In this document: positions 1 through 26,064 of the stretch, in pieces
Numbering within the stretch: position 1 is the first letter of the stretch
Layout of the letters: every line of letters begins with the position of its first letter
Translations under genes and position numbers: made by a program
The notes under the pieces: model-generated
Seen by the model: only the letters and a program-made list of their open reading frames with translations
The model's database searches: none
What the model was told of the DNA's origin: nothing
Assembly: GCA_015490315.1 (NCBI GenBank)
Contig: WFYB01000052.1
Coordinates: 1-33,747 of the forward strand
Source of the DNA: Sulfurovum sp.
Lineage (GTDB): Bacteria > Campylobacterota > Campylobacteria > Campylobacterales > Sulfurovaceae
Direction: 5' to 3'
DNA length: 33,747 bases

Positions 1-1021
1 CAATGACAGCCAGTGCCCAACCTGAACCTTGATTGTACATTTCTGTAGCTTTAAGATCTGCGACCCAATAGCGTCCACTCTGTTGAACATACTGTGTTAC
101 ATTAACAGCAGCACCGTAGTCAAAGATACTACCATCTACCATCCAATTAAACTTTTCATCTGCAGTTAGTGTAACATAGCCGCCTGTTGTAGGTGTTTTG
201 AATCTTATCGTAGCAGCTGATGCTCTTACAGTTTGGTTATCTGTATCTAATCTACCTATCCAATAAAGCCATGCTTCTATGACTTGGTCATTAGCATTAA
301 GTGTTAAATCTGCAGAGGTAGAATTGAGATAGCCGTTAGCAATGGCTTCCGGATCAAGATTGGCATATTCCTGATAGTAGCTATTGTTTGAAGCAGTGAA
401 ACCTGGATCTACACAACTTGAGGTACCGTTTTTCCAACATAATGACTGGTTACCAATCACTAATAAGTCACCATAAATATTGGTATTTTCAGCTCCAGCA
501 ACATTGACCTTTGTAAAGGGTCGAGGGTTGTTTGAGGTTAAAGATTTGGTTGTTGAAATTGAAAAATAGTCAATTCCAACCCATTCATCACTTGCAGTAG
601 AGTCGGGTACTACATCTAGTGTTACAAGACCATTATCATCTGTTGTAATTTCAAAGGATTCGATATAGTAATTACCAGCTCCTTGATATTGTTTGATGAG
701 TGAACCATTCATAAAAACGTTAAGGTAATCAACATAGCTTCCGGAAGTTTCCCATGTAGAAGGTACATAATAACGAAACGTAACATATAAGGTTTGATTG
801 GCATATGAAGTACCAAGATTATATGTCTTGGTTGCAATCTGGTCTCTATTGATATACATATACCCATTATTGTTCCATGTATAGGCATCACCTCCCCAAC
901 CGTCTAGACTGCCATTATTAAAGTCATCATAAGCTAATTGAGCACCAAAATTGATAGATGGGACTAGTATGAATAAGATTAAATATAAAAGTTGTTTGGG
1001 GTATCGAGTTAGATATGTCAC
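1..1021 (-). CDS. Large exported surface-type protein, N-terminal part (runs off left edge)
   Basis: I translated an uninterrupted frame of 340 codons from a GTG at 1021-1019 to the window edge. The GTG is preceded by AGAAGG with about 6 nt spacing. Residues 1-27 form a Sec-type signal peptide (basic MTYLTRYPKQ, hydrophobic LLYLILFILV, then INFGA). Residues ~28-155 are rich in Asn, Gly, Tyr and Ser and look like a beta-sandwich carbohydrate-binding or lectin-like module (starts LAYDDFNNGSLDGW). Residues ~170-340 contain NTNIYGDLLVIGNQSLC, AWLYWIGRL and GSGWALAVI, which I associate with the N-terminal regions of large DUF11-type or adhesin-like bacterial surface proteins. No catalytic motif is visible. 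The gene is clearly more AT-rich than the rest of the window, and a GEMM-I riboswitch lies in its leader. The coding call is firm; the product class is inference. The C-terminus is outside the window. Confidence 0.85.
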   Translation of the reverse strand, partial: MTYLTRYPKQLLYLILFILVPSINFGAQLAYDDFNNGSLDGWGGDAYTWNNNGYMYINRDQIATKTYNLGTSYANQTLYVTFRYYVPSTWETSGSYVDYLNVFMNGSLIKQYQGAGNYYIESFEITTDDNGLVTLDVVPDSTASDEWVGIDYFSISTTKSLTSNNPRPFTKVNVAGAENTNIYGDLLVIGNQSLCWKNGTSSCVDPGFTASNNSYYQEYANLDPEAIANGYLNSTSADLTLNANDQVIEAWLYWIGRLDTDNQTVRASAATIRFKTPTTGGYVTLTADEKFNWMVDGSIFDYGAAVNVTQYVQQSGRYWVADLKATEMYNQGSGWALAVI

Positions 1022-1036
1022 AATAGCACCTTCTTT

Positions 1037-1048
1037 GCTCAATTGAGC
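1037..1048 (-). promoter_or_regulatory. Palindrome beside the surface gene's Shine-Dalgarno
   Basis: GCTCAATTGAGC is perfectly self-complementary. On the transcript it can form a hairpin flanked by TTTGC and GCAAA, ending directly beside the AAAGAAGG ribosome binding site. It is a candidate part of the riboswitch expression platform. This is read from sequence only. Confidence 0.35.
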
Positions 1049-1104
1049 GCAAAATTTTTGTATGTATATTGAAAAGTGTTATCATTTAAAGAATATGCTT
1101 ATGG

Positions 1105-1170
1105 TCGGCAACCCGGCTGTCTCTACAGACCCGTGGCTTTCTGTCCTTCCTTCAAGAAGTTTAGCTTTTC
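1105..1170 (-). promoter_or_regulatory. Cyclic di-GMP-I (GEMM-I) riboswitch, copy 1
   Basis: Read on the minus strand, the RNA runs GAAAAGCUAAAC, then a short helix, GGACAGAAAGCC, ACGGGUCU, loop, AGACAGCC and GGGUUGCC. The GACxxAAAGCC core, the GGGUCU/AGAC helix and the GCCGGGUUGCC 3' strand are GEMM-I landmarks. A second copy at 10137-10206 keeps the same core while both helices change sequence and stay paired, as expected of a structured RNA. It sits about 84 nt upstream of the surface gene's GTG, with a candidate promoter just upstream. The 5' strand reads GCUAAAC rather than the commoner GGCAAAC, so ligand identity (c-di-GMP or 3',3'-cGAMP) is not settled by eye. Confidence 0.8.
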
Positions 1171-1189
1171 TCCATACATTACATCATTT

Positions 1190-1195
1190 AGTATA
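1190..1195 (-). promoter_or_regulatory. Candidate -10 box for riboswitch/surface-protein transcript
   Basis: TATACT on the minus strand, within the AT-rich stretch TATATTATGTTATACTAA. It lies about 20 nt upstream of the aptamer's first helix, so transcription would begin just before the riboswitch. No convincing -35 is visible, which is common in Campylobacterota. Confidence 0.45.
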
Positions 1196-1378
1196 ACATA
1201 ATATAGGATAAAAAAACAGATGTAGTCATTCTAATGGACAATCTGCATAAAATACATAGAAGTATTTGGGGATATGACACATTTTGCACCATGGCGAGAT
1301 CTGTATCTCTGTAGGGCATTAATACACTTTTTACACACTCTACGCTATGATAAAGCAATCAAAACGTGAAGGCAGTGT

Positions 1379-2029
1379 ATGGATATGAAAAAGAGTATTT
1401 TGGTGGCGATGGTCATGGCGGTAGTGTTGGGCGGATGCGGTGCGTCGAAGGATGGCGTGGCGGAGTTCAACAAGCCTGCACTCTACTGGTACAAAAAGAT
1501 CGCAGCAAGTATCAGCGACGGCAATATGGACAAAGCAGATGCCTACTATATCTCTCTCAAGAGCGAACATATGCGCTCTCCGCTGATGCTTACGGCGATC
1601 CTGATGCTTGCCCATGCCCACATGAGCAAAGAGGAGTATCTACTGGCAAACTACTATCTCGATGAGTACAACAAGCGTTTTGGAGATCCCAAAAGCAGAG
1701 AGTACATCGACTTCATGAAGCTAAAAGCCTCTTTCCTCGGGATCAAAGATGTCTACAAGGATCAGAAGCTGATCATGGACTCCATCAGGCAGGCACGTAC
1801 CTATCTGATGCGCTATCCCGGCTCCGAGTATACACCGCTGGTCAACACGATCCTGGTCAGACTATTGATGAGTCAGTATCTGCTCAATGAAAATATCGCA
1901 GCGCTATATGACCGTATCGGCAAGCCCGAAGCGGCGAAGATCTACAGAGAGAAAAACAGCAACTCCGTGGTCGAGATGTCCGATATCACCCCTCCGGAAA
2001 AAGGGATCATCGGTAAGATCTTCGATTAA
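1379..2029 (+). CDS. bamD: Outer membrane assembly lipoprotein BamD
   Basis: BamD is an outer-membrane lipoprotein with TPR-like helices that, with BamA, inserts beta-barrel proteins such as the LptD encoded later in this window. The 216-residue product begins with a lipoprotein signal peptide ending in the lipobox LGGC, so the lipidated cysteine is near residue 20. The mature part is alpha-helical and TPR-like (for example EEYLLANYYLDEYNKRFGD and YLMRYPGSEYTPLVNTIL, typical of BamD/YfiO). AAGG lies 6-7 nt before the ATG at 1379; a second in-frame ATG two codons later would also serve. It is followed after 118 bp by lon, an arrangement I know from other Campylobacterota. It is shorter than E. 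coli BamD (about 245 aa), which is usual for this group. Confidence 0.85.
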   Translation: MDMKKSILVAMVMAVVLGGCGASKDGVAEFNKPALYWYKKIAASISDGNMDKADAYYISLKSEHMRSPLMLTAILMLAHAHMSKEEYLLANYYLDEYNKRFGDPKSREYIDFMKLKASFLGIKDVYKDQKLIMDSIRQARTYLMRYPGSEYTPLVNTILVRLLMSQYLLNENIAALYDRIGKPEAAKIYREKNSNSVVEMSDITPPEKGIIGKIFD

Positions 2030-25876: not shown

Positions 25877-26064
25877 GCCTGAGTGGAGCGACCACTGTAT
25901 ATGGGGTCCAACATTAAATCTTAGTGGGACATGTAGCCTCTCGGTGTGCGGATGTCTTCGTTTGAGTTCCGGAAACGGAACGAGAAGATATCCCCTAAAG
26001 AGAGGCTCTCTCCTGCGCTGTTGGCTTATTAGGGCCGACTTTAAACAGAACGCCCACTCGGGTA
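25876..26064 (+). ncRNA. ssrS: Probable 6S RNA
   Basis: The ~189-nt RNA is closed by a 14-bp terminal helix (UGCCUGAGUGG-GCG with CGCCCACUCGGGUA, one bulged A). Inside are a large asymmetric central bubble with small side hairpins (GUUGGC/GCCGAC near 26018-26037) and a long apical arm. The arm is built of AGCCUCUC/GAGAGGCU, CUUCGUU/AACGAGAAG and a perfect GUUCCG-GAAA-CGGAAC cap. A long rod with a central bubble and this length are the hallmarks of 6S RNA, which sequesters sigma-70 RNA polymerase in stationary phase. I believe 6S RNA is also found near purD in other Campylobacterota, but I cannot verify that here. No tmRNA, RNase P or SRP RNA motif fits. Confidence 0.6.

Follow-up and report, generated by a model that had tools for sequence, protein, structure and literature searches.

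Can c-di-GMP control a giant surface protein of the Campylobacterota through an RNA leader and, if so, would it turn the gene on or off? We examined this question in a 33,747-nucleotide stretch of DNA (here, the window), the entire contig C52 of a 1.80-Mb assembly (83.7% complete) from the genus Sulfurovum. An initial annotation, made from the letters of the sequence, had described a GEMM-I aptamer, a promoter and a palindrome next to the ribosome binding site upstream of an adhesin-like gene. We put at about 0.6 the probability that a class I c-di-GMP riboswitch here acts on the translation of a giant exported protein encoded in a type IV-like pilin operon.

Aptamer and leader of the giant-protein gene

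The annotated aptamer was borne out by Rfam cmscan, which placed a full-length RF01051 match on the minus strand at positions 1175 to 1104 (55.3 bits, E value = 2.3e-8, gathering score 35) spanning all 87 positions of the model. In the written-out structure, the 5′ strand of P1 (UAUGG, 1176 to 1172) pairs with CCAUA (1104 to 1100), a 3′ strand that in homologues also serves as the 5′ arm of a hairpin, HP1. The bases aligned to Vc2 G20, A47 and C92, which we take to be the ligand contacts in Vc2 numbering, are G, A and C by their position in the Rfam alignment. The window aptamer is thus a genuine member of the c-di-GMP-I class, which is already known, and it resembles RF01051 and RF03167 members (Vc1, Vc2 and Cd1) in sequence, structure and leader position. 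Its ligand is probably c-di-GMP. Under another reading, that of a GEMM-Ib-type aptamer, the ligand would be cGAMP, which the initial annotation had also brought in; a type IV pilus gene, Geobacter pilM, lies under a cGAMP-sensing riboswitch of the same clan (PMC9262584). Since the G20A change is absent, with G and not A at the aligned position in the window, as in 81 of the 82 aptamers scored, we rejected this reading as extremely improbable.

Docking of a P2 GNRA tetraloop to P3 is common, not universal, in c-di-GMP-I riboswitches. The P2 of the window has a shorter stem and a UGAA loop in place of the GNRA tetraloop, a state common to just one other aptamer examined; a GNRA loop was scored in 80 of 85 aptamers, and three of the other five are parse failures that visibly carry GUGA. 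The loss of this tetraloop is consistent with a decaying switch, in which the aptamer would still be recognizable and its response to ligand slight or nil, as are the lack of binding by a Cd1 tetraloop mutant (PMC9262584) and the loss of the aptamer in the closest homologue, L173. The score over the whole length of the model and the retained contact bases argue against decay, which we hold to be quite unlikely. At about positions 860 to 1024 of L173, an aptamer with deletions, giving no Rfam match even at an E value of 5, stands before an intact homologue, an apparent loss of the riboswitch.

The GTG start (1021 to 1019, inside a listed frame at 2 to 1042) comes 82 nt after the aptamer, and the Shine-Dalgarno (SD) sequence AAGAAGG (1035 to 1029) is 7 nt from that GTG. 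Directly 5′ of the SD, the palindrome GCTCAATTGAGC (GCUCAAUUGAGC, 1048 to 1037) noted in the initial annotation proved to be a structured hairpin, HP2, at a covarying position. The promoter fared less evenly: a probable −10 element, TATACT (1195 to 1190), can be read from the sequence and is retained in L173, and a sigma-70 scan found three sites where 1.8 were expected, no better than in shuffled sequences, without listing TATACT. No terminator-like site was found on the minus strand of the window, so that terminator control of the giant-protein gene was rejected. Another riboswitch of the same assembly, L010, has a terminator-like hairpin 3′ of its aptamer.

The gene itself (2 to 1021, minus strand) is clipped by the contig edge, leaving a 5′ part of 340 amino acids whose N terminus is signal-peptide-like by a simple hydropathy rule. 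Matches to its product occur in 10 of the 78 genomes of the genus, a count that takes in the window's own, and the homologues, at 1,136 to 1,941 amino acids, agree with the large exported protein that had been proposed. The adhesin-like character holds in part: Pfam found Ig-like (Big_9), cadherin-like, CUB, DUF11 and P-domain regions in some homologues, no adhesin-like domains in two (L179 and L178) and no match in the window fragment. Most homologues end in a WxGxGxTGHVV..RLxW-like C terminus, and a profile search against solved structures gave one weak match to an RTX protein (E value = 1.7e-4) and another at an E value of 0.24. In L223, early stops downstream of 1589 interrupt the frame from the platform ATG, possibly a pseudogene or a frameshift.

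Type IV prepilin-like open reading frames follow the giant gene in Sulfurovum relatives where the sequence is long enough; L237 and L175 have too short a downstream sequence or no prepilin motif. By analogy with these relatives, pilin genes may also follow the window's own gene, and the protein may have an adhesive and pilus-related role. PilY1/minor-pilin operons likewise encode a large exported protein with several prepilin-like proteins. They differ in gene order, and PF05567 (PilC/PilY1) was not among the Pfam matches of six giant homologues (the window protein being a fragment with no match), so that the likeness is an analogy only.

Conserved expression platform 3′ of the aptamer

Next, we looked into the leader between the aptamer and the start codon (1104 to 1019, minus strand). 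Four leaders were aligned, and three of them, stripped of the aptamer and with the window left out, served to build a model (R1). R1 detected the window platform in the right place (22.4 bits, E value = 0.074) and matched 22 of 78 genus genomes at an E value of 0.1 or better. Several of the matches directly adjoin independently found RF01051 aptamers, and of 17 R1 loci checked with Rfam, 11 have a class I aptamer next to them. Because a model trained without aptamer or window found leaders beside independent aptamers, these results indicate that a conserved expression platform, coupled to the aptamer, follows it in the leader. A second model, R2, was built from 23 sequences; its 46.6 bits for the window are circular because the window was in the training set. 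R2 matched 26 of 175 family genomes, most of them also in the training set, at one place each except for two in G113.

The two hairpins of the platform, HP1 and HP2, covary strongly. In an alignment fitted to the structure (A5), double-change cells numbered 47 where shuffles gave 18.8 ± 3.8, and pairing reached 85%, with no slid control above 45%; a further alignment (A4) gave 33 double-change cells against 15.1 ± 3.5. Over 24 leaders, all seven pairs of HP2 changed on both sides and 81.9% of its cells were paired. The HP1 helix covaries across the leader set, and the window, whose HP1 3′ arm is degenerate, forms four of its seven pairs in the register adopted. R1 gave 22.4 bits for the window and 33 to 93 for the other copies, which makes the window platform the most diverged one in the set. 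This score, the lowest of the intact set, would fit the decay discussed above. Together with the degenerate HP1 arm, the altered P2 loop and the lost aptamer of L173, it weighs against the control proposed here.

Predicted switching and its direction

Anatomy and folding favor translational control of the giant-protein gene. The evidence bears on the class I aptamer, the conserved platform coupled to it, the two covarying hairpins and a coding strand on which no terminator was found. In the scheme that we propose, the 5′ strand of P1 is common to a helix H1 and its 3′ strand is common to HP1. Without ligand, the 5′ strand would pair with a downstream motif to form H1 and the 3′ strand would form HP1, which together would hold an anti-SD segment off the ribosome binding site and leave the gene on. 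In the presence of c-di-GMP, the aptamer and its P1 would form at the expense of H1 and HP1, and the anti-SD would pair with the SD and the spacer, turning the gene off. That c-di-GMP closes the ribosome site in this way has, from the modeled folds, a somewhat better than even chance. The initial annotation had implied that c-di-GMP turns the adhesin on; the predicted anatomy favors off.

In the window, the proposed 5′ strand of the anti-P1 helix H1 is AUGUAUG (1179 to 1173), complementary to positions 1068 to 1062, and pairing of this region appears both in the free minimum-energy fold and in the duplex output. By the leader alignment, the downstream partner is UAUACAUACA (1068 to 1059), the counterpart of the conserved motif GAUGUACAUAC. 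A swap test of H1 gave a P value of 0.039, with one row lacking the 5′ strand. The candidate anti-SD, AGCAUAUUCUUU (1099 to 1088), forms 11 of 12 possible pairs with AAAGAAGGUGCU (1036 to 1025) when the aptamer is enforced in folding. This match persists although both sides depart from the genus consensus, which argues against decay of the window copy.

Energies for the window and for the leader set bear on the predicted closing of the SD. The window anti-SD:SD duplex has −10.9 kcal/mol (shuffle P value = 0.058), and across leaders the energies differ from those of shuffled linkers (Stouffer z = −3.5). The anti-SD:SD swap test was not significant (P value = 0.27), and about 7 of the 19 leaders show little complementarity. 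Opening the window SD is predicted to cost 2.5 kcal/mol in the free state and 6.7 kcal/mol once the aptamer is formed (shuffle P value = 0.008); the shuffle P values in the other three leaders were 0.108, 0.117 and 0.35. Opening is dearer with the aptamer formed in 15 of 19 leaders, with a Stouffer z of 4.1 against shuffled linkers that overstates independence because the leaders are related. The predicted difference between bound and free states is at most 1 kcal/mol or reversed in 8 of the 19. Leaders without a recognizable aptamer (L173 and L183, the latter from G064) have a mostly open SD when folded, and the H1 strands of L183 and L235 (both G064) match each other over 11 bp.

The opposite sign, which we regard as rather doubtful, would arise if the ligand broke H1 and so let GAUG pair with CAUC, whereupon an anti-SD of the form CAUCUUU would leave the SD and the gene would turn on. 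Segments of the form CAUC..GAUG can be read by eye in most leaders, CAUCUUU-type segments can pair with AAAGGUG, and there is a precedent in the positive control of gbpA by Vc1 in Vibrio cholerae (PMC4744006). The CAUC..GAUG hairpin is, however, not readable in the window, the SD is predicted to be more closed in the bound state in most leaders, as given above, and H1 is retained or strengthened in G064, in a leader without a recognizable aptamer. We keep closure by c-di-GMP as the preferred direction.

These features set the Sulfurovum leaders apart from the class I systems described. Class I members of C. difficile act by transcription termination (PMC6366702, PMC9262584), and neither a terminator nor an anti-SD is apparent for Vc1 (PMC4744006), whereas the platform in Sulfurovum is conserved, covaries and includes a candidate anti-SD. 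The platform thereby offers a concrete anti-SD hypothesis for a class I riboswitch, a mechanism left open for Vc1. Vc1-gbpA is similar in having a GEMM-I aptamer before a secreted colonization protein and no terminator. It differs in that Vc1 activates, whereas the Sulfurovum anatomy favors repression, and in that the Sulfurovum target sits in a pilin-containing gene cluster in relatives; the proposed switch would connect c-di-GMP with a giant, variable surface protein whose gene is accompanied by pilin genes.

Riboswitches and PilZ in the genome and the family

PilZ is the usual protein receptor of c-di-GMP. The window's assembly has 14 RF01051 matches over the cut-off and 15 GGDEF domains, and neither PilZ nor MshEN, the two receptors that the screen covered, was found in its 1.80 Mb at 83.7% completeness. 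Across the family, RF01051 matched 106 of 175 genomes in 8 of 11 genera, with up to 21 riboswitches per genome, and PilZ passed the cut-off in none of the 175. The same PilZ search passed it in 104 of 397 genomes sampled from the phylum and in 5 of 14 controls; RF01051 did so in 42 of the 397, other families included. With 14 riboswitches and no PilZ found in the assembly, RNA may carry much of its c-di-GMP signal. It is possible, if with the odds somewhat against it, that c-di-GMP acts mainly through RNA in the whole family, PilZ being absent and riboswitches having become the principal effectors. Just as tentatively, such an RNA-led regulon would comprise surface proteins and signaling, with up to 21 riboswitches in a genome of about 2 Mb.

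A first downstream gene was found for 66 of the 73 riboswitches examined. By a simple rule on hydropathy and lipobox, 46 of the 66 look exported (24 with a signal peptide or transmembrane segment and 22 lipoprotein-like), a raw count in which some genes appear twice because aptamers occur in tandem. The remaining 20 do not look exported, and several of these encode PAS proteins. Targets in the window's assembly include GEVED/SdrD_B, LysM-NlpC/P60, beta-helix and CZB proteins. Exported or surface proteins and PAS signaling are also targets of RF01051 and RF03167 riboswitches, in keeping with the GEMM name.

The 14-riboswitch set, the family without PilZ matches, the conserved platform and the downstream pilins in relatives go beyond the initial annotation. 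The sole metabolite-sensing riboswitch found in work on C. jejuni was one for TPP (PMC3847290). A limited open-access search returned no paper on c-di-GMP riboswitches in the Campylobacterota, for which Rfam may already list matches, and no earlier description of the platform and its PilZ-free setting. With up to 21 riboswitches per genome and no PilZ match over the cut-off in 175 genomes, it becomes possible to test, in Sulfurovum sp. AR among others, whether second-messenger signaling runs mostly through RNA.

Further RNA elements were seen in the window and its relatives. A second GEMM-I riboswitch of the window (10211 to 10136, minus strand, RF01051 50.4 bits) lies upstream of a PAS gene; the same strand from 10191 to 4620 holds this gene, then a 469-amino-acid frame, and also a hybrid histidine kinase-like frame (1,069 amino acids) and a response-regulator-like frame (121 amino acids). 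Tandem GEMM-I aptamers occur on G097:C1 at 1909477 to 1909556 and 1909625 to 1909704 and at 1209353 to 1209430 and 1209507 to 1209585 (L189, L193, L205 and L191). In two leaders from other genomes that are 95% identical over their alignment, L227 (1586 to 1828, minus strand) and L220 (about 1258 to 1500, plus strand), a near-perfect hairpin of about 170 nt extends P3 of the same riboswitch (−97.3 kcal/mol, z = −12.9). This insert gave no convincing family in a relaxed Rfam search, and a 41-base pattern from it had no exact match in viral contigs. On the plus strand of the window, an Rfam purD motif lies upstream of purD (25933 to 26063); the corresponding region in C. jejuni and H. pylori has been reported as 6S RNA (PMC3847290).
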